Origin: Entomospira culicis
Lineage (GTDB): Bacteria > Spirochaetota > Spirochaetia > WRBN01
DNA length: 64,000 nucleotides
Assembly: GCF_028748145.1 (NCBI RefSeq)
Contig: NZ_CP118181.1
Location: 930,211-994,210 of the forward strand
Reading direction: 5' to 3'
Below, in pieces: positions 16,010 through 25,685 of the stretch. Every line of letters begins with the position of its first letter. The first letter of the stretch is position 1. The notes beneath the pieces were generated by a model. The model did no database searches. It had not been told where the DNA came from and saw only the letters and a list, made by a program, of their open reading frames with translations. The translations under genes were made by a program, and so were the position numbers.

Positions 16010-17020
16010 GTGAATTTAATGAAAACTATTCTCTTTCTCCTTTTGACGCTTTTCCCACTTACTTTATGGGCAACTCCTGAAGATGAGGAGCATGTCAACC
16101 AATTTATGGAGGAGATCCGTGACTTATCCAGAGAAGAACAGATCGACGCACTCTTTTTACAAGCAAACGATGCTTTACTGCAAAAAAAATATACGTTAGC
16201 CATCGCTTATGCCGAACGCGCGCGTGCGCTGGCGCCAACAAATCCTAAAGTTGTGGCGAATGCGGACTCTATTATTCGTATTGCTAACGCCCAAATCGCC
16301 CAAGAAGAGGCACAAAAAAATCAACAAGAAGAGAAGGTCAACTGGTCTACCGATGATAATATCATCGACAGAAATCGCTATCTCTTTCTTGCGTCCCTAC
16401 AGCTCGACAACTACACCTTTCGCTGGGAGCGAAATCCCACTTATGCACGTGCTGGGCTAGGCATCAACCTAGAGGGCTACTTACCCTTCATGGATAAACA
16501 ATTTGGCTTTGCCCTTGCCTACTCCTCGCAATTTATTGATTTTAGTTTCCCTAAAATAGCCAAAGATTTCATCAACATGCGCTATGATGCCTTTTTTGTT
16601 TGGCGCACCACGTGGCGTATTCCTGCCGTGGAGATTCAAAGTACCATTGCTCTCAAATTTGGTGTATCAGGGCAATACATCATTCCCCTCAATCACATCG
16701 ATCCTGATATAGGTGAGCTACCCGAACCTTTTATTCTGCCGAAATTCGCTCTTACCTTTCAAGATGCCATCATTGGTCGCTTCATTCCTAATAATTTCAC
16801 TAAAAACCTATATCTTAACGCTAACTTTGGTTTAGAATATCTGCCATTTCATCGTACCAAGGAGAGTATTGCACTGGAATTCTCCTTAGGTCTCTTCTAC
16901 AGCCTAGGCAACATCTCTTTTGGCCCACTCTACCACTTCCGATACCATCGACTCATCCGTGCCAATCAAGTACTAAGTTATAATCGCTGGGCATTTACCA
17001 TCAATTACACCGTCTATTAA
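16010..17020 (+). CDS. Exported protein with short TPR-like helical segment and C-terminal beta-barrel
   Basis: AAGGAG (15992-15997) favours GTG 16010; the ATG at 16019 begins the same signal peptide (KTILFLLLTLFPLTLWA). Residues about 25-110 are helical with one TPR-like pair (LFLQANDALLQKKYTLAIAYAERARALAPTNPKV). After a charged linker, about 200 residues alternate in amphipathic strands ending in an aromatic residue (INYTVY), as in outer-membrane barrels. No enzymatic motif is seen. Its 3' end overlaps the convergent GH57-like gene by 4 bases. A TPR-plus-barrel envelope protein; function unknown. Confidence 0.75.
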   Translation: MNLMKTILFLLLTLFPLTLWATPEDEEHVNQFMEEIRDLSREEQIDALFLQANDALLQKKYTLAIAYAERARALAPTNPKVVANADSIIRIANAQIAQEEAQKNQQEEKVNWSTDDNIIDRNRYLFLASLQLDNYTFRWERNPTYARAGLGINLEGYLPFMDKQFGFALAYSSQFIDFSFPKIAKDFINMRYDAFFVWRTTWRIPAVEIQSTIALKFGVSGQYIIPLNHIDPDIGELPEPFILPKFALTFQDAIIGRFIPNNFTKNLYLNANFGLEYLPFHRTKESIALEFSLGLFYSLGNISFGPLYHFRYHRLIRANQVLSYNRWAFTINYTVY

Positions 17021-18852
17021 TTTATCTCCTTAGCAGATAATAAGTTAGAATCTTTTTCAAACAACTCTAAACGCATCACAATATCCAACCGTTGCTCGCT
17101 CGCAGGGGGAAGCTCAACAGGTAATAAGATGAGAATCGCCACTCCTTGATGCTCCTCTCGTCCAGAAAACGCTGTTGTAAGGGTTTTTCTCCAGAGAGTT
17201 ATAGGATGCGAAAAAGAGATGGAAATCTTTATCCGCTTCTCTTCTGAAATCATATCAATATAAGAGATCTCCTCATAAGAGTCAGGTGCTAACTCGCCGT
17301 GTTTACTAAAACATTTCATCGACGCATCTAAAGAGAAGTTAAGTTCAACGCCAAATTTTCGACTCACATGACCTAACGCATGATTACTCAAGACGTAGCG
17401 CACCTCTAAATAAGAGGCATGAAAACGAAATTCTTTTTCTAATAAAAGCAAGGTCTCATCAATATTCTTTTCCAAAGCGTATTTAGCCTGATTACCCCCC
17501 ATCTTAAGCTCTACCAACTCGTATACACTCTGGGCAAATTCTGCATGAAACGGCTCTGCTATCGGCTCATTCCAATCACGATAGCTAAATACTTGTGGAT
17601 AAAAAAAGTCGTGAAATGCCCGCGAGTAACCAGCAAGATGATCCTTAGCAAAGACATTAAGTAAGGAAATCCCTGAAGGGAAAAAATCCCAAGCAAAGAG
17701 CACAGCTCCACGCGCATGGACAAATGCATTACTCAATGCGCTCTGATAAAGCACCTCATCCAAGCCATCCATATCAAAATCAGCTCGAACTAACCCGTAA
17801 TTGATCGCCTCGGCTTCACGGACAATCTGATCAGCCTGTAAAAGGTGGTGCATTGCCTTCTCGCGTGCCTGTGCATTGAGAAATCCACCATAACGCCGAT
17901 GCCAGTAAAATTGATGGTTTTGTGCGCGTAATACACTCTGAATCGCAATGTGTTTACGGCTTTTATCCCGCTTAATTTGCCGTACACTCAATGCCGTATG
18001 AATGCTTTTAGCGTGAAATAAGCGTATAGAAAATTGATTAAATAACTCATTTCGATAAAAATCAGACTTTGTATCAAAAACCACGCCCGTGGAAGCCGGT
18101 AAATAAACCCGTTTAATCGGCTTAGAAAGTGTTTTATAACGAGTTAAAATCTTTGATGGTAACGTAAATTGAACGCCCTTTGCCTGTAGCGCATTAAGAA
18201 TACGCTCTAGTGCTACCACGTCTCTGCCATCACTAACTAAAGAGAGCAAGCCGTCGCCATCGCAAGGTAAATCTAAGATACGTTGCACTTCTGCGTCTAC
18301 TTCAGCATCAAGATTTAATCGTTCAAAAGGAAAAACCCAAAGCGTCTTACCCATCTCTTCCGTCAAAAAGAGCTCCCCAGGGGAAAGAATCCCACTGGCG
18401 TTAAAACGGCAACGATCGACAAACGTATAATGAAGATCGCCGGTCTTTAAACTATGAACCAAAGATGGCTCCCATACATCACCGTTGAGATAGGCACCAT
18501 GCGGTTTTTTACCAAAATACTCACGTAAGGCCAGCGCCATCTCTACCATCTGTGCAGTGCGATCTTGTGGCGAAAGTAAGGGAATAAACGAAGCATAATA
18601 AGCTCCCCCCAAGATTTCCATCTGCTTACGCGAGACCAGTTCATTCATCGCGGAGATCGCCTCATTATGATAAGCTTTGAGCCATTGCAACGTCTCGCCA
18701 CACAGGTAATGCGTAAACGACCACTCCTGCCTTGCATAAAAAAGGCGAATAAATGGACGAATTTCCCGTTCATAAAAGTGCGATAACGTCTCTTCATCCA
18801 CCCCCAAAGGTAGCTCATGGTGGATAGTTAAAATAATCTGCTTAATCGACAA
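17017..18852 (-). CDS. GH57-like protein with lost catalytic residues, last gene of the rnf operon
   Basis: The N-terminal half follows GH57 4-alpha-glucanotransferases/alpha-amylases, and about 200 C-terminal residues resemble the beta-rich domain of those enzymes. The active-site regions are changed. The HNHQP motif is IHHELPLG. The GGxYEPxLP motif is GGAYYASFIP (82-91). The nucleophile motif WLTERVWEP is YLNGDVWEP (121-129), with Gly124 where the catalytic Glu belongs, and the DDGEKFG acid/base motif is SDGRDVV. Catalysis is therefore unlikely; a binding or regulatory role is possible. It starts with TTG 10 bases after rnfB, so it is cotranscribed with it. Confidence 0.8.
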   Translation of the reverse strand: MSIKQIILTIHHELPLGVDEETLSHFYEREIRPFIRLFYARQEWSFTHYLCGETLQWLKAYHNEAISAMNELVSRKQMEILGGAYYASFIPLLSPQDRTAQMVEMALALREYFGKKPHGAYLNGDVWEPSLVHSLKTGDLHYTFVDRCRFNASGILSPGELFLTEEMGKTLWVFPFERLNLDAEVDAEVQRILDLPCDGDGLLSLVSDGRDVVALERILNALQAKGVQFTLPSKILTRYKTLSKPIKRVYLPASTGVVFDTKSDFYRNELFNQFSIRLFHAKSIHTALSVRQIKRDKSRKHIAIQSVLRAQNHQFYWHRRYGGFLNAQAREKAMHHLLQADQIVREAEAINYGLVRADFDMDGLDEVLYQSALSNAFVHARGAVLFAWDFFPSGISLLNVFAKDHLAGYSRAFHDFFYPQVFSYRDWNEPIAEPFHAEFAQSVYELVELKMGGNQAKYALEKNIDETLLLLEKEFRFHASYLEVRYVLSNHALGHVSRKFGVELNFSLDASMKCFSKHGELAPDSYEEISYIDMISEEKRIKISISFSHPITLWRKTLTTAFSGREEHQGVAILILLPVELPPASEQRLDIVMRLELFEKDSNLLSAKEIN

Positions 18853-18862
18853 AATGCCCGCC

Positions 18863-19720
18863 CTATTCCTCTACCTTAGAGGTCATATTCGTCCGCTCAA
18901 AGGCATGAATCACCTGTGTCGGGCAACCATAAATAATACGTCGCATATGCTCTTTTGATATCACTTCCTTTCCGCGTTGAGCAAGAAAATTCTCCACAAA
19001 AAAGGTATCGGCACTGCTCTGTTTTTGACAACTCGCGCAACCCGTACATCCGCCACTAGGACAGATTCTCTCCTTCTCCTGCTCCGAAACAGAAGAGCTA
19101 CAAGCTACCGAGGCTAACCTATCGCGATCCAAAATTTTAATTAAATCCTTAGGACAACTCGAGACACATAACCCACAGCCAATACAGCGCTCCCCATCGA
19201 TGTAAATCTTTCCCGCTTTATCGCGTGTAATGGCCTCAACGGGACAACTAGGAATACAGTCGCCACGCCCAATACAGCGCTCAAAACAGCTAAATTCATT
19301 ACCCACTAAACCTACAATGTCATGACAAGAAGCACTTTTGTTCTGGACATCTACCCGCAAAAAAGATTGATTGGTATGCGGATTACTCTCCTGACAAGCC
19401 AAAAATGCCACCTTAGGCGTACTGCTAGAGATAATTTGTCGGCTCGCATAGTAGCCCAAGAGGTTGCGCACATGTTGATGCTCAGCATCATTCATCAAAA
19501 AACAACGCTCCACGTGCATCTCTTGTTGCATACTCAAAGCCATCGCAAAGTCATGACAACTCTGATATCCACACTTACCGCAGTCATCCCCCGGTAGCGC
19601 ATCTTCTACCACCTTAACCTTCGAGACCCCCTCGCTAGTGAGATTCGAGAAAAAGAGTACCGAGCCTACACTCACTAATGCTAAAAGCAGTATGATTAAT
19701 ATTATCGAAAAAATGATCAT
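18863..19720 (-). CDS. rnfB: Rnf complex ferredoxin subunit RnfB
   Basis: RnfB receives electrons from ferredoxin. An N-terminal membrane anchor (about 1-28) is followed by the LPGDDCGKCGYQSC cluster motif. Two ferredoxin-type 4Fe-4S motifs come next (CIGRGDCIPSCP and CIGCGLCVSSCP), and a further cysteine set is present (CPSGGCTGCASC). All cluster ligands that I would expect are there, in contrast to the membrane subunits of this operon. It lies 24 bases after rnfA and 10 before the GH57-like gene. Electron-carrying function is plausible, but its partners lack their usual cofactors. Confidence 0.92.
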   Translation of the reverse strand: MIIFSIILIILLLALVSVGSVLFFSNLTSEGVSKVKVVEDALPGDDCGKCGYQSCHDFAMALSMQQEMHVERCFLMNDAEHQHVRNLLGYYASRQIISSSTPKVAFLACQESNPHTNQSFLRVDVQNKSASCHDIVGLVGNEFSCFERCIGRGDCIPSCPVEAITRDKAGKIYIDGERCIGCGLCVSSCPKDLIKILDRDRLASVACSSSVSEQEKERICPSGGCTGCASCQKQSSADTFFVENFLAQRGKEVISKEHMRRIIYGCPTQVIHAFERTNMTSKVEE

Positions 19721-19744
19721 TCCTTAGCGCCCCTTTCTCTCAAA

Positions 19745-20296
19745 CTAATTCATTAATGGATATAATATCATATAAAAAAGCGCCGCACTCAAAAAAAGAT
19801 GAATTCTGCCACCAAAACGTGCTTGGGCGTGTAAAATAAAGCGCTCCTCATAGACCACAGCCATAAAGGCCGCTAACCAAACTGCCAACATGCCCATCCC
19901 GTAGTGTCCCAATCCTTCATGCCAAGCAATCGTGCGTTCAGCGTCTAATAAAAAGAGCGTACTACTCATCAGTACGACGGCAAAGGGATAGACCAAAAAA
20001 TCTTCAGGCATGTCATAACGTTTGAGTGGCAAAAAGCTATGAAATAAAATAAAAAAAGTAAGCATAGAAAACGAGAATTGAAGAAAAAAGAGCATCACGC
20101 GCCAGCTGTAATGCAATTGACTACTCAATAAAACCAGAAGAAGTAACGTCAGCGTGGAGATTATCACAAAGAGGATACTCTTTATGAATAGGATCCCCTT
20201 ATGATGAATTGCTTTTAGTAAAAAGGCGTGCCCGTAAAGAGAGAATAATAAATAGTTTATTATAAGATTATAAACAAAATTTTGCGTCAAATTCAT
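19745..20296 (-). CDS. RnfA-like membrane subunit lacking all cysteines
   Basis: About six transmembrane helices in 183 residues and the position between rnfE and rnfB fit RnfA (NqrE family). RnfA normally supplies two cysteines (for example in LGICPFL) to an iron-sulphur cluster buried between RnfA and RnfE. This protein contains no cysteine: the corresponding segment reads LYGHAFL. Sequence similarity to ordinary RnfA is otherwise low, so the call rests on order, length and topology. It overlaps rnfE by 4 bases (ATGA), implying coupled translation. It is intact, so it is not simply a decayed gene. Confidence 0.62.
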   Translation of the reverse strand: MNLTQNFVYNLIINYLLFSLYGHAFLLKAIHHKGILFIKSILFVIISTLTLLLLVLLSSQLHYSWRVMLFFLQFSFSMLTFFILFHSFLPLKRYDMPEDFLVYPFAVVLMSSTLFLLDAERTIAWHEGLGHYGMGMLAVWLAAFMAVVYEERFILHAQARFGGRIHLFLSAALFYMILYPLMN

Positions 20297-20883
20297 GCCA
20301 ACCTCCTTCGCATCTTCGTAGCAAGATCATCCAGCGTACTGTAACTAAGAAAAAAGAAAATAATCATCAATGTGCGTCCCATCGAACTCTGCCAAAATGA
20401 CCAAACCCCTACCGTAATCAACTTTCGCTCTACCCCTAGAGGCATCAACTTATGGATAATTGCATAGCTACCCAAAAGCGTAACCAAAACAACGCTTATC
20501 GTTAAAATGATTTGCTTGGGATTTTGCGAGAGATGCTGTGCCTCATAGACATTCTCTATACGACTAATTAAAACGCTCAATAAGACAAATAAGATCATAC
20601 GTTCTAAATGTTTCGTATCAAAAAGATAGAAAAAAGATCGCTCAATAAGCGCAAAAGTTAGCGAAACAAAGATACCAAAGAGTAAAACCATCGCTGCGCT
20701 CACTTCACGCTGAATTCGTAATCTATCAATTTGATAAAATAAGCGTGGCACCGCCAGTAACACCAATAACGACCAACCAAGACTCAATACCCAGCCAATC
20801 ACACCAATATCACTGGGAATCAGCATTGCATGCAAAAATAACACCAACAAAAGTGTGTTGCTATAGATCATACGCTCTTTCAT
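20293..20883 (-). CDS. RnfE-like membrane subunit lacking all cysteines
   Basis: The 196-residue polytopic protein sits in the rnfE position (between rnfG and rnfA) with about six hydrophobic segments. RnfE (NqrD family) normally carries two conserved cysteines (for example LGLCPTLAV), which with RnfA hold a membrane iron-sulphur centre. Here no cysteine occurs anywhere; the N-terminal segment reads LVLFLHAMLIPS. Start ATG follows directly on the rnfG stop. The identification is by synteny and topology rather than by motif. Confidence 0.62.
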   Translation of the reverse strand: MKERMIYSNTLLLVLFLHAMLIPSDIGVIGWVLSLGWSLLVLLAVPRLFYQIDRLRIQREVSAAMVLLFGIFVSLTFALIERSFFYLFDTKHLERMILFVLLSVLISRIENVYEAQHLSQNPKQIILTISVVLVTLLGSYAIIHKLMPLGVERKLITVGVWSFWQSSMGRTLMIIFFFLSYSTLDDLATKMRRRLA

Positions 20884-21402
20884 TTATACCCTCGATCCTT
20901 CTGCCTGCACATACGCCTGCCCATGCTTGAGTAACTCATATATATAGATGCCCTCACGAGTTGGCCTACTCTGCTCTGTTATATAACGATGATACCCCTC
21001 CAGCAGTTGATCACTAGGCAAGGGAACATAAAGATACTCTTTGGCATAAACAACTGCTTTTAGATCGCCACTATTCCCATAATGCGCGATCAACTCCAAA
21101 GGCAGACCATAATTCTCCACCCACAAGTTGAGCACCCAAAAGAGCTCCTCACTACTAGGCAGCTCCTCGTCCAACTGAAGCGCTCCATAGGATCCACGAA
21201 TAACGCGACGAATCGTAGCATCTTGAACGGTATAGGCAACGACATAATCTTGTGAAATACCGACTTTATTTAACATCTCATAATTGTAATTCAGACTCTT
21301 TTTTTTGTACATAAAAGAAGAGACAATGGTTAATATCAATAAAATAAACGCGATTACCCCAAAAGTGATGCCATAAATTTTTGCACTGCGCTCCATTCTC
21401 AT
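20884..21402 (-). CDS. RnfG-like single-pass protein without the FMN-attachment motif
   Basis: The protein has 172 residues: one N-terminal transmembrane helix (about 9-30) and an extracytoplasmic domain. This is the topology of RnfG, normally about 180-220 residues with FMN covalently bound to the Thr of an S(G)ATxS/T motif near the C-terminus. No SGAT-like motif is present. The C-terminal half reads IYIYELLKHGQAYVQAEG, where the motif would be expected. It overlaps rnfD by 4 bases (ATGA) and abuts rnfE. Called RnfG by position; it could be an unrelated single-pass protein that replaced it. Confidence 0.55.
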   Translation of the reverse strand: MRMERSAKIYGITFGVIAFILLILTIVSSFMYKKKSLNYNYEMLNKVGISQDYVVAYTVQDATIRRVIRGSYGALQLDEELPSSEELFWVLNLWVENYGLPLELIAHYGNSGDLKAVVYAKEYLYVPLPSDQLLEGYHRYITEQSRPTREGIYIYELLKHGQAYVQAEGSRV

Positions 21403-22250
21403 GTGCGATGCCTCCCTAGCTTTTGTTTAGAAAATGTACGCCCCAACGTATGACGATGAATGACGGGACTAACCATATTTGCAATCAAAATCGCCACGAC
21501 AAAGCTAAGATCCCCTAGTTGATATCCCCAAAAAAAGAGCGCGCTCAAAAAACCAATCAACAATCCATAAAAAATCTTCCCGATAAGGCGCATGGGTATA
21601 GAAGAGGGATTAGGTGCAACAAATAGCGCAAGGAAAAGCCAACTCCCACCACTAGCAAGAGGCGTAAATGATTCTCCAGCCATCATCGATAAGAGGTAAG
21701 CCAGACTTAGGTACGATAGAATAGCGCTGAGACTGACCGAGCCATTGATAATGCCCAACAAGGTTAAGATAAGCCAACTAGCGACCAACACTCCAGCTAA
21801 TATCGGGTTAGACCACAGCGTCGCCAAGCCGGCATAGGGAGTACTCAACAAATAATAGAGTAAGCCCACCATCGCAGGATTGAGGTAGTTCGCCCCCATG
21901 CCACCAATCGCCCACTTACCTATAATAATGGTGAAAAAAGCAATGCTAAAGAGCGTCCATGGATCGAAGAGCTGTATAGGCAGAAGTAATGCTAAAATCG
22001 TCGCACTCACCCAAGCCGTACCGTCTAAGAGCATAAATTTTCGATACAAAAGATTCATCAAAAGCTCCAGACCCGTGCTCATCGCTAATAAAATACCCCA
22101 ACGTAGAAGAATCTCCCCCTGCCCTTCCAATAACCATGCAAGGATCAATTGCAAACCCAACGCTAGTGTCATCAAGCCCATCTGCAAAGAGGTGCGTTGC
22201 CAGCTACGGATAAACGGTGCCGACTTGACCCCAGAAAAGAGTATCTCCAT
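21399..22250 (-). CDS. rnfD: Rnf complex membrane subunit RnfD, flavin-attachment region missing
   Basis: RnfD/NqrB family features are clear: DGTAWVSATILALLLP, IGGMGANYLNPAMVG, LFVAPNPSSIP and a late VVAILIANMVSPVI. About ten hydrophobic segments are visible. The DAVSGAT-like segment, which carries covalent FMN through Thr, should lie between LNPAMVG and the next pair of helices. Only a short GLATLWSNP stretch stands there, and no S/T-GAT motif occurs. The gene starts 4 bases after rnfC, with GGGGAGG within the rnfC end as ribosome binding site. Confidence 0.85.
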   Translation of the reverse strand: MEILFSGVKSAPFIRSWQRTSLQMGLMTLALGLQLILAWLLEGQGEILLRWGILLAMSTGLELLMNLLYRKFMLLDGTAWVSATILALLLPIQLFDPWTLFSIAFFTIIIGKWAIGGMGANYLNPAMVGLLYYLLSTPYAGLATLWSNPILAGVLVASWLILTLLGIINGSVSLSAILSYLSLAYLLSMMAGESFTPLASGGSWLFLALFVAPNPSSIPMRLIGKIFYGLLIGFLSALFFWGYQLGDLSFVVAILIANMVSPVIHRHTLGRTFSKQKLGRHRT

Positions 22251-22254
22251 GATG

Positions 22255-23589
22255 CTATTGCCTCCCCGTTAGCGTAGGTTTATCTTGTGCTTGCACAAAT
22301 GTCTGACTTAGCTCCAATCTTGCAGGGCAGTGATACGAACAGAGCCCACAAGTGATACACTCCGATAGTCCATAGGCATGCGCAATGTCGAGACGATTTG
22401 CCTTAATGCTCTGGTACATCTCTCGTGGGGCAAGAGACAAGGGACAACCACGAAAACAGGCACTACAGCCACTGCATGCGGTGGGTCTTGCCGATTTTGT
22501 CTCTTTTGGCAACAACGCCATAATGGCGACCATCTCTTTGGTGAGTGGAGTATCAAGATCGATCACCATCTTACCAAGCATCGCGGTGTGGGCGACAATA
22601 GTTGCATTTTTTGCCGTAAGCCCGCCACACTCTTCTAATAAAAAGCCAATTGGCGTTCCTAATTTGGCAATCAGCGAACGCGAATGTTTTACGCCCGCCC
22701 CAGCCACACTAATGGCGCGATCAATAAGTGGCTTAGCAAAGGCTAGCGCCTCATAACTGGCGATAAATGTAGCAATATTACTAATCACCATGCCTTTATC
22801 TTCTGCGCTAACGCTTGGTAGCAGACGCTCTTGGGTGAGGCTATAAACCATCAGACGTTCATGACGATAGGGATATTTAGCATCTAGCAGGAGCTCTCGA
22901 ACCTCCAATTTGGTAATCTCTTTCAGTGATTGGGAGAGGGTCTGAAGTTCTGCAGAGAAGGTACGATTGCTTACCAAGACGATGGTTTTAGGCTCTAAAA
23001 GTCTCGCGGCGATGGCAATACCACTGGTAATTGCCGTAAGTTGCTCTTTAAGGAGCTGTTGCGCAAGGCTAAGATAGGCATCGACCTCACTGGCATCGAC
23101 GACCAATATGGAACAAGACTTCTCTTTTGTAGTCCACTTAATATGAATAGGCACTGCCGATCCATCTAACTCGACCACGCCTTTACTGGAGAGTTCGCTA
23201 AGGATTTGCTGTTTATTCCAGTTGCTGTAATCGCGAACCGCATCTTTGGCTTGCACACGGAAACGCCCACCCGTAGCCACGTCGATAAAGAGCATCTTCT
23301 TACCATTGACATGCACGCGTGAAGTAATCGCCTTGACTTCACCAGGAATGGCGCTATGAATATTTGCCGAGTGCATCGTCGTTGCCTTGGCGATAAGCAT
23401 CCCCTCCTCTACGCGATCACCCACGTGGACAACGGGTAGAGCCTCCTTCCCGGCATGTTGAAGCACCGGATAGCTGGCAATAATGGGAATTGCCGCAAAG
23501 TGAAATGTATCGTCGGCTTGGTTTGATGGCTTATTAGGCGCCTTGACCCCAGAAATCCTCATGATTCTAATTTCGTTCTCCCTACTCAT
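22255..23589 (-). CDS. rnfC: Rnf complex subunit RnfC with degraded NADH/FMN motifs and intact Fe-S motifs
   Basis: RnfC normally takes or donates electrons with NAD(H) through FMN and two 4Fe-4S clusters. The N-terminal barrel (VHVGDRVEEGMLIAKA, HSAIPGEV) and both cluster motifs (CSGCSACFRGCP, CITCGLCSYHCP) are present. The nucleotide-binding motifs are not: GMGGAGFPTH appears as ELDGSAVPIH, NxAECEPY as DASEVDAY, YPQGAEKQL as YPYRHERLM, and the GGPMMG region as TAMLGKM. The start is the ATG overlapping the previous stop (ATGA, 23586-23589). NADH oxidation therefore looks doubtful. Confidence 0.88.
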   Translation of the reverse strand: MSRENEIRIMRISGVKAPNKPSNQADDTFHFAAIPIIASYPVLQHAGKEALPVVHVGDRVEEGMLIAKATTMHSANIHSAIPGEVKAITSRVHVNGKKMLFIDVATGGRFRVQAKDAVRDYSNWNKQQILSELSSKGVVELDGSAVPIHIKWTTKEKSCSILVVDASEVDAYLSLAQQLLKEQLTAITSGIAIAARLLEPKTIVLVSNRTFSAELQTLSQSLKEITKLEVRELLLDAKYPYRHERLMVYSLTQERLLPSVSAEDKGMVISNIATFIASYEALAFAKPLIDRAISVAGAGVKHSRSLIAKLGTPIGFLLEECGGLTAKNATIVAHTAMLGKMVIDLDTPLTKEMVAIMALLPKETKSARPTACSGCSACFRGCPLSLAPREMYQSIKANRLDIAHAYGLSECITCGLCSYHCPARLELSQTFVQAQDKPTLTGRQ

Positions 23590-25685
23590 TCGTCTGTAGT
23601 CTTTGCATATTTTATCATAAATTTTAAATTGTTCATAGCCATAAAAGCCCAAAATACCAGATAATTAAGCGTACTCACGCCTAAAATTGTCCAAGCAGAG
23701 AGGTCTAACCAGTGGATAAAGACAAGGCTGGTAAGGACGGGTAGCAAGATAAAAAAGAGGTGGTAGCTTTTGGCACGTGTACGCGTAAGGCGATCGAAGA
23801 GTTGCGCGAGAGCTATCCAGCGCATGATCGATTTGGTCTCGATTGCGCCAAAAATAACTTCAGATCGCTTGAGCGTAGGCATGTCTGCACGTTCGTCGGC
23901 TAACCAAATGGGCGCATCCTTGATATTATCCTCATGCGCGAGACTTCTGCCATCACTAAGGTAAATAACCCGTTCGGCTTTGCGTTGAAAAGTTGCCAGC
24001 AATTGGTCAATTTGGCTGATATCACACCCACCATAGGCATGTAACACCCCCACGTCCCGACAGAGATCGTTAAGGTAGCCTTGGGCTAGCGCGCTAATCA
24101 GAACCACTTCGAATTTCTCTTGTTTTGCTAATGTAATCAAGGATCGTAACTCTGTATTAAGCATATAAGGTATATAGATATAACCCAAATCAGCATTATC
24201 AGAGGAAAAGCGGTAGTAACAGCCACCAGCGCTTTGCGTGATGGTACTCTGCGCCTCTACGCGATAAGATAAGGCGCCCCAGCGTCCTTCTTGATAAGGC
24301 AAGGGCGATTTCGTGTGATGTTGTAATAGAAAGTCCTCCGCTAGCGATGAAAAGGTTGATGCCATCGTGGAATTCGTTACGGTAATACTGGCCTGTGCCA
24401 TGGCTAAGTCTAAACCAAAGCGCCCCTGATGGATCACTAAGGTCTTGATCTGCGCAATCCCAGTGAGTCGCCGATGTCGCACCCAAAGTGCTCCGCCACC
24501 CCACGACCAGCGATCAAAGAGCCGACGCAAACGTGTTCGAGTAAAATTCTCCCACGATTGATGAGTCAGCGTACCCCAAAAGAGCGCCAACACCCCCGTG
24601 CGAAACCACATCGATAGCGACCAATACCAAGGAACAATCGATGCATAAGAGAACCCGACAACCAGCATCGCTAAAAGGAAAAAGAGAAAACTCTGACCAA
24701 GATACGCAAACATGACACTAAGCCAAGAAATCCCACTACGCCAAGGCACAATGGGCGTAATTTCCCCATGAAAAGAGGGTTCATTCAAACCGGAAAGGGC
24801 CTCAAAGTAGACCAAATCACTCTTCGAAATCCCTCCGGCGCAAAGCCCCTCCCCACACCGATAGTGATGCGTTACGTGCTCTCTACCATAAAGATGCTCC
24901 AGCTCTGCCTCTTCAGATAAGAGACGCGCCTTAACAGGCAAGAGCATCCCCCGTTTAAGAGAGAAGCGATCGCCTGCCTGTAAGAGCATGGTAGACTTTT
25001 TTTCTGTGTCCGCAAAGACAAAGCTATCGCGCCACTGGGCAAATGCGTTATGTGATTTATCCGCAAAAAAGTATGGCAGCAACATTCGATAGTGTAGCGT
25101 GCCCAAAGTAATTGCATAAGCCCAAAAAATTAAGCCCATATAGCTAGTAAGCATGGCGAAAGAGAAGAGTTGCGGCTGCAGGTAAAGAAGCGTAAAAAAG
25201 AGACCCCCATTGACCCACAAATAATACCCAAAACTAACCGTCTGCCTATCTGCCATTGGCACAGAAAAGCGCGCAAACTGACGACTAAGATGCCTGTGAA
25301 TGCTCCCAAAGAGTATCCACCCTAAGACGAAAAGCAATACCACCCACGCAGAGGTGATATGAAAAAATCGATGTAGCATCGCACCCAACAGCCAAAGAAG
25401 AAGTGAACTCACCCCAAAGAAGCCAGCAAAAAAGAGAGCATACTGTCGTCGTTCCCCGCCCTCTAAGCGCGATCCAACCACGTGCGCACCTTGCTCTTTC
25501 AATCTCAAGAGAATCTCAGACTCAGTTACAAGCGATGCGTCAAAGGTAATTAAGAGCGAATGATTGCCCTCTTGCTTAATATCAACGCGAATAATGCCCT
25601 GCACCTGCTGAAGAGATTCGATCAGCTCTTGCCTTAAATGACTGTGATATAAATTGCTAATTTGTATAGAAATTGCGTCTCTCAT
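23586..25685 (-). CDS. Catalytically degenerate P1B-type ATPase-like protein heading the rnf operon
   Basis: The architecture is that of a CopA/FixI heavy-metal ATPase. A ferredoxin-like HMA domain (1-70) has YHSHL where CxxC belongs. Paired helices, an actuator-like domain (236-300) and further helices follow, then P-domain-like and hinge-like segments and two final helices. Key residues are gone: DKTGT is HQGRFG (419-424), TGE is YGRE, the CPC membrane motif is absent, and GDGxND is SDGRSL (577-582). ATP-driven transport is thus unlikely. AAAGGAGGCAT precedes the ATG. It is translationally coupled to rnfC, so it is probably a structural or sensory partner of the complex. Confidence 0.8.
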   Translation of the reverse strand: MRDAISIQISNLYHSHLRQELIESLQQVQGIIRVDIKQEGNHSLLITFDASLVTESEILLRLKEQGAHVVGSRLEGGERRQYALFFAGFFGVSSLLLWLLGAMLHRFFHITSAWVVLLFVLGWILFGSIHRHLSRQFARFSVPMADRQTVSFGYYLWVNGGLFFTLLYLQPQLFSFAMLTSYMGLIFWAYAITLGTLHYRMLLPYFFADKSHNAFAQWRDSFVFADTEKKSTMLLQAGDRFSLKRGMLLPVKARLLSEEAELEHLYGREHVTHHYRCGEGLCAGGISKSDLVYFEALSGLNEPSFHGEITPIVPWRSGISWLSVMFAYLGQSFLFFLLAMLVVGFSYASIVPWYWSLSMWFRTGVLALFWGTLTHQSWENFTRTRLRRLFDRWSWGGGALWVRHRRLTGIAQIKTLVIHQGRFGLDLAMAQASITVTNSTMASTFSSLAEDFLLQHHTKSPLPYQEGRWGALSYRVEAQSTITQSAGGCYYRFSSDNADLGYIYIPYMLNTELRSLITLAKQEKFEVVLISALAQGYLNDLCRDVGVLHAYGGCDISQIDQLLATFQRKAERVIYLSDGRSLAHEDNIKDAPIWLADERADMPTLKRSEVIFGAIETKSIMRWIALAQLFDRLTRTRAKSYHLFFILLPVLTSLVFIHWLDLSAWTILGVSTLNYLVFWAFMAMNNLKFMIKYAKTTDE

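Follow-up and report, generated by a model that had tools for sequence, protein, structure and literature searches.

An rnf operon of Entomospira culicis without recognised flavin and membrane iron-sulphur sites, and its relatives among the Spirochaetia

Introduction

The Rnf and Nqr complexes are known as redox pumps. In the Rnf complex (PDB 7zc6, 8ahx and 9eri) electrons pass from RnfB to the [2Fe-2S] cluster of RnfA and RnfE, then to flavin mononucleotide (FMN) on RnfG, the flavins of RnfD, and finally FMN and NAD at RnfC; the ligands of the membrane cluster are C25 and C113 in RnfA and C25 and C108 in RnfE (PMC11889175). We describe here an rnf operon of the spirochaete Entomospira culicis which lacks recognised sites at each membrane or flavin step past RnfB. 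It lies in a stretch of 64,000 nucleotides (contig NZ_CP118181.1, positions 930,211 to 994,210 of the forward strand), referred to as the window, which is G000:C1:930211-994210 of a 1.77 Mb genome that is 95.8% complete.

The window operon resembles the described Rnf complex in its six-gene order C-D-G-E-A-B, in the domain make-up of RnfC and RnfB with their 4Fe-4S sites, and in the fold family of RnfD. It differs in having neither the FMN/NADH motif of RnfC, nor the cysteines of RnfA and RnfE, nor the flavin threonines of RnfD and RnfG, nor a genomic ApbE. PrdC, named for proline reductase clusters and found outside any six-subunit membrane set, is an RnfC relative that stands outside the Rnf pump; its match to window RnfC scores 107 bits. 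A platform role for RnfC has a precedent in Na+-NQR, in which the RnfC relative NqrA is free of redox cofactors (PMC12174285), although the other parts of Nqr retain their cofactors and the window genome has no match to PF02508 (the RnfA/E and NqrD/E type). Lastly, a noncanonical, active, flavin-dependent RNF pump has been proposed for Treponema pallidum (PMC7512555); G076, the genome taken below as that of T. pallidum, carries the same degenerate locus as that described here, in which the flavin and membrane iron-sulphur sites are missing. No earlier description of a cofactor-less spirochaete Rnf was met in the literature searched, outside which most subscription papers fell.

Cofactor sites of the window operon

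The six Rnf open reading frames (ORFs), at 18863-23589 on the minus strand, are all intact. They are coupled as the first-pass annotation of the window had described: ATGA overlaps join an upstream ATPase-like gene to rnfC (23589), rnfD to rnfG (21402) and rnfE to rnfA (20296), rnfG and rnfE abut, and the other operon junctions are gaps of 4-24 nt.

Window RnfC was aligned residue by residue to the solved chain 7zc6_C. At the same positions GMGGATFPTHVK is replaced by ELDGSAVPIHIK, NAAECEPYLTCDHRM by DASEVDAYLSLAQQL (VVNAAECEPYLTCDHRM to VVDASEVDAYLSLAQQL when listed from 7zc6_C to the window) and KYPQGAEKQL by KYPYRHERLM, and the protein has none of the FMN/NADH motifs (GxGGAxFP, ECEPY, YPQG). 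RnfA and RnfE are free of cysteine, the four cluster ligands of canonical spirochaete subunits (GLCP and VNC in RnfE, GLCPFI and TTNC in RnfA) being replaced in place, while the R-x-E that follows the lost cysteine in canonical RnfE is kept. RnfD has a deletion that removes the D..SxAT segment, and its riboflavin-site aspartate region reads APNPSS in place of ATDMVTS; the GGxGxNxxNPAxxG element is retained. RnfG has no (S/T)GA(S/T)xT flavinylation motif. These absences, apart from that of the riboflavin-site aspartate, had been noted in the first-pass annotation, and the alignments uphold them. Displacement of the ligands to other positions is ruled out by the alignments to 7zc6_C and canonical RnfE, in which the residues are substituted where they stand.

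The same annotation held that every 4Fe-4S cysteine remains. This is so for RnfC (9/9 conserved cysteine columns of the C-terminal iron-sulphur region); RnfB keeps 20 of 21, and the one it has lost is also missing from an intact second kind of spirochaete Rnf, termed type-2. The window genome encodes pyruvate:ferredoxin oxidoreductase (PFOR); ApbE, the flavin transferase, was not found in its 95.8% complete sequence. No second Rnf or Nqr was found in this genome, where PF02508 recognises neither RnfA nor RnfE. The sites were tabulated over approximately 90 rnf loci, and the losses in the window are not due to chance, since intact loci keep these motifs almost without exception. Judged from the sequences, the known route of electron transfer through the membrane can be ruled out with high confidence.

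A locus common to the Spirochaetia

The gene order RluD-DUF212-X-RnfC-D-G-E-A-B-GH57-FN3-prfB, in which X is a membrane protein, recurs across the Spirochaetia in intact and degenerate loci alike, and we label it type-1. The window operon is orthologous to it, with its GH57-like gene directly after rnfB as in the type-1 locus. X is encoded in 180 of the 248 sampled genomes, and only marginally in other classes of the phylum. It is absent from the window genome, where the ATPase-like gene stands upstream of rnfC, and from another genome of the same family (G001); several intact type-1 loci also lack it, so that X does not strictly define the type. About 20 families have intact RnfC motifs, and 13 have lost them (52 loci, many of them from close Borrelia-like relatives, or 33 after thinning). 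Intact motifs occur in 30 type-1 loci, of which three, in family f28, already have an altered GxGGA element. The families that have lost them include treponemes (G076 and G185) and the Borrelia-like family, and appear to take in the agents of syphilis and of Borrelia disease; G007 and G019 are likewise among the losing genomes. Tentatively, we take G185 to be T. denticola, G007 Spirochaeta thermophila and G019 Borrelia turicatae. We take G076 (1,139,633 bp) to be T. pallidum, as the RnfD frame of its degenerate locus, 173898-174965, spans position 174177, at which an RnfD variant of TPASS_20151 has been published (PMC6103504).

In the RnfC tree type-1 sequences, intact and degenerate, stand apart from type-2 Rnf (support for type-2, 100), and the window groups with the genome of its own family (98) within a degenerate group supported at 95. 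We do not claim many independent losses: the tree is explained by two changes only, of which branches with strong support require one, and its long branches leave the count uncertain. Genome reduction as the sole cause is ruled out, as others of comparable size, namely G011 (1.7 Mb), G020 (1.9 Mb) and G036 (1.5 Mb), retain intact motifs. Searches of genome contigs for named relatives gave no match with window RnfC as query, and an A4 query found only Rnf from other phyla.

The condition is not peculiar to the window organism; the window is one end of a class-wide series. In family f28, G048 and G080 retain ECEPYL together with the RnfD threonine and have lost one cysteine in each of RnfA and RnfE; G048 keeps the RnfG motif as well. 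Their relative G028 has lost all four RnfA and RnfE cysteines and the RnfC motifs, and still has the RnfG motif. The order of loss is the reverse in G088 (L093), where the RnfC motifs are gone and RnfA has cysteine at both aligned ligand columns. The place of rnfG in G001 holds an ORF of 31 amino acids consisting of a transmembrane segment only (L031:7446-7538, minus strand). RnfB, RnfE and RnfG were undetected in families f12, f14 and f18, and RnfB in most treponemes that keep RnfC, D, E and A. In G076 RnfC has no FMN/NADH motifs, RnfA and RnfE no cluster ligands, RnfD no flavin site and an RnfG-like ORF no flavinylation motif; RnfB was undetected, and ApbE and PFOR are present. Borrelia-like genomes retain only an RnfC-RnfD fusion and RnfA, without any iron-sulphur ligand or flavin site, as two neighbouring chromosomal genes before prfB (L038:6823-9699), and no PFOR was found in them. 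PF02508 is absent from the window genome, its sister genus, G076 and the Borrelia-like genomes. ApbE is absent from the window family and the Borrelia-like genomes and present in 13 of the 13 other genomes tested.

The gene bb0071 is presumably X, as judged from gene numbering. Transposon mutants of bb0071 were in the input library and none was recovered from larval ticks (PMC6516651). At L057 (G115) the RnfC and RnfD motifs are intact, G, E, A and B are absent and the GH57 gene directly follows rnfD, while at L030:9059-12657 (G007) riboflavin biosynthesis genes follow a degenerate locus.

Several genomes that have lost the motifs carry an intact type-2 Rnf, which is without X or GH57 and often has the order B-C-D-G-E-A (e.g., L078-L082). 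No second, intact Rnf was found in the window family, G076 or the Borrelia-like genomes. This distribution suggests a takeover of electron transfer from type-1 by a replacement pump, which some lineages later lost again, this order of events being our reading of the pattern. The link is not strict, because another RnfC is also encoded in a small number of genomes whose type-1 locus is intact.

Selection on the degenerate subunits

The window genus is represented by a single genome, and the ratios of nonsynonymous to synonymous substitution (dN/dS) were taken from relatives with the same lesions. Pairs of treponemes gave values of 0.07-0.08 for RnfC, 0.10-0.13 for RnfD, 0.05-0.12 for RnfE and 0.15-0.20 for RnfA. 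Among Borrelia-like pairs with dS > 0.1 the fusion gave 0.14-0.18 and RnfA 0.14-0.23, by comparison with 0.07-0.12 for RF2. The S. thermophila-sized pair gave 0.24 for RnfD and, on a frame longer than the gene, 0.35 for RnfA. Pairs with a tiny dS are uninformative (one gave 1.1 at dS 0.007). With values for degenerate RnfC, D, E and A mostly at 0.05-0.23, these subunits are under purifying selection, and the earlier suggestion that selection maintains the set is borne out through the relatives.

Subunit identity and other genes of the operon

The eight-gene operon runs on the minus strand from 25685 to 17017 (Table 1). Hidden Markov models (HMMs) of the subunits were built from other spirochaetes, with the window sequences left out. 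At 369, 110 and 186 bits respectively, window RnfC, RnfD and RnfB are, on these scores, beyond doubt Rnf subunits. Scores fall to just 9, 6 and 4 bits for RnfG, RnfE and RnfA, none of which reaches a Pfam or NCBIfam cut-off; their identity is therefore drawn mainly from operon position, topology and short motifs. RnfA of G001, which has the N-x-LL...G motif in common with window RnfA, scores 101 bits against the RnfA model. The window can be described as carrying a six-subunit Rnf operon, A, E and G being placed in it by position and short motifs only.

Table 1. Features of the window operon
Feature	Coordinates	Strand	Evidence
699-amino acid ATPase-like protein; first gene of the operon, lineage-specific	23586..25685	-	Guessed P1B-ATPase-like layout, no Pfam match
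RnfC-derived subunit without FMN/NADH motifs; retains barrel-sandwich and SLBB domains and two 4Fe-4S sites	22255..23589	-	TIGR01945 285 bits (above cut-off), 7zc6_C alignment, motif table
RnfD-derived membrane subunit; flavin-threonine segment deleted, riboflavin aspartate replaced	21399..22250	-	PF03116 1.7e-31, column table
RnfG-like; one transmembrane helix and periplasmic domain, no flavinylation motif	20884..21402	-	Position, HMM 9.4 bits (best of window set), transmembrane scan
RnfE-like; six predicted helices, no cysteine	20293..20883	-	Position, 19% identity to canonical RnfE, R-x-E after lost cysteine, weak model with six helices
RnfA-like; no cysteine	19745..20296	-	Position, N-terminal N-x-LL...G motif common with G001 RnfA
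RnfB-derived subunit; 20/21 iron-sulphur cysteines	18863..19720	-	PF04060 and Fer4 matches, cysteine columns, HMM 186 bits
GH57-like protein; conserved last gene of the locus	17017..18852	-	PF03065, PF09095, synteny, column table

The 699-amino acid protein has paired transmembrane helices and a weak HMA-like N-terminus (E=0.66). It has no DKTGT phosphorylation motif and no family match, and among 31 genomes it occurs in its own only, with no counterpart in the 30 relatives. Its structural model reached a predicted local distance difference test score (pLDDT) of 42, and the N-terminus gave a weak ferredoxin-like match only. The window GH57-like protein has YLNGDVWEP where WLTEQVWEP is expected, with glycine at the position of the apparent nucleophile glutamate. 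Across the GH57-like rows of approximately 35 loci the apparent catalytic glutamate is often missing, in intact and degenerate loci alike, and a second pseudoenzyme may therefore sit in the operon.

Explanations considered

We regard the window operon as probably a redox-dead descendant of an ancestral spirochaete Rnf, kept for a redox-independent membrane role. Since the cofactor sites are lost and the genes are nevertheless under selection, the complex probably serves a different job. RnfC assembled on an RnfD/RnfA(E) membrane core would serve that role, which may either have been present already in the ancestral pump or have arisen once a second Rnf took over electron transfer. The role that we consider most likely is an inner-membrane scaffold or gate, in which RnfC would act as a cofactor-poor cytosolic platform, like NqrA in Nqr. 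A scaffold or gate built on RnfC, RnfD and RnfA would fit all of the degenerate members. Of the two roles offered by the first-pass annotation this corresponds to the non-pumping scaffold; the other, a ferredoxin-linked sensor, does not hold as a role common to the family.

Several points weigh against this explanation. The selection figures come only from relatives of the window organism. The assignment of window RnfG, RnfE and RnfA leans mainly on position over score, and the RnfE model (from a nine-row alignment) has a pLDDT of 53 and no useful fold match, the models being too poor for use. The window has neither X nor a locus copy of DUF212. Finally, G027 (L138, G027:C1:1206000-1223000) keeps DUF212, X, GH57, FN3 and prfB with the whole six-gene rnf set deleted between X and GH57, and family f9 (L139, G069:C75) has X directly by prfB and no rnf or GH57 genes; because of these deletions a redox-independent role cannot be universal.

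The best placed of the alternatives, though an unlikely one, is a ferredoxin-linked redox sensor or cytosolic electron shuttle which works through the 4Fe-4S clusters of RnfB and RnfC without membrane flavins. The iron-sulphur cysteines kept in the window (all in RnfC, 20/21 in RnfB) and the PFOR of its genome are in keeping with this, and the window complex may act as a redox sensor. It cannot serve all members in common: RnfB was undetected in most treponemes and in families f12, f14 and f18, and the Borrelia-like genomes have lost PFOR and all iron-sulphur sites, yet keep the fusion and RnfA under selection. Under the scaffold explanation, 4Fe-4S clusters could still be bound by RnfB and RnfC of the window, with redox sensing perhaps as an added layer, one that would be unneeded in the Borrelia-like relatives.

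It is improbable that RnfA and RnfE persist as a redox-uncoupled ion channel, i.e., a gated leak or valve. RnfA and RnfE do form the Na+ path in Rnf (PMC11889175) and window RnfE keeps R-x-E after the lost cysteine, but most other degenerate RnfE proteins lack that glutamate, and RnfE itself was undetected in f12, f14, f18 and the Borrelia-like genomes.

Slow decay, by which the genes would be relics of a useless pump with frames still open by chance in the window genome, is also given little credence. It would account for the stepwise loss of subunits (the transmembrane-only RnfG peptide of G001; the failure to detect B, E and G in several families), the complete deletions in G027 and f9, the split reading frames in a few degenerate loci (L068, L071) and the long branches in the RnfC tree. 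Against it stand dN/dS values far below 1 in each of four separate degenerate families, the open frames of all Borrelia-like genomes examined, persistence over 13 families, and the conservation of structural motifs (IREVLG in RnfE, GGxGxNxxNP in RnfD). The combination of a second, complete rnf set with decayed genes in relatives was not encountered: no second set was found in the window genome, and most degenerate relatives examined have no decayed frames. Lastly, a functional Rnf that has diverged far and uses other ligands or flavins bound non-covalently, as might be imagined from the T. pallidum system published as a noncanonical, flavodoxin-fed RNF (PMC7512555), is very improbable in view of the joint loss of the sites, the deleted RnfD segment, the absence of any cysteine from window RnfA and RnfE, and the lack of ApbE in the window genome.

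Implications

Beyond the window, we lean towards the view that the Rnf of the Spirochaetia has a second, redox-independent function, one that would persist after electron transfer is entirely lost and, among Borrelia-like genomes, after every iron-sulphur site has gone too. The T. pallidum "pump" would then be such a redox-dead complex, and flavin-based energy conservation in that organism would not proceed via these genes. The energy model published for this agent of syphilis takes a functional Rnf for granted. The genes in question seem incapable of moving electrons across the membrane, and since the sites are missing from G076 the pump proposal needs a direct test. Two neighbouring conserved genes of Borrelia gain a likely identity, as an RnfC-RnfD fusion and RnfA. 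For a fold known as a redox pump, a selected, class-wide set without membrane redox sites would imply an unrecognised function.

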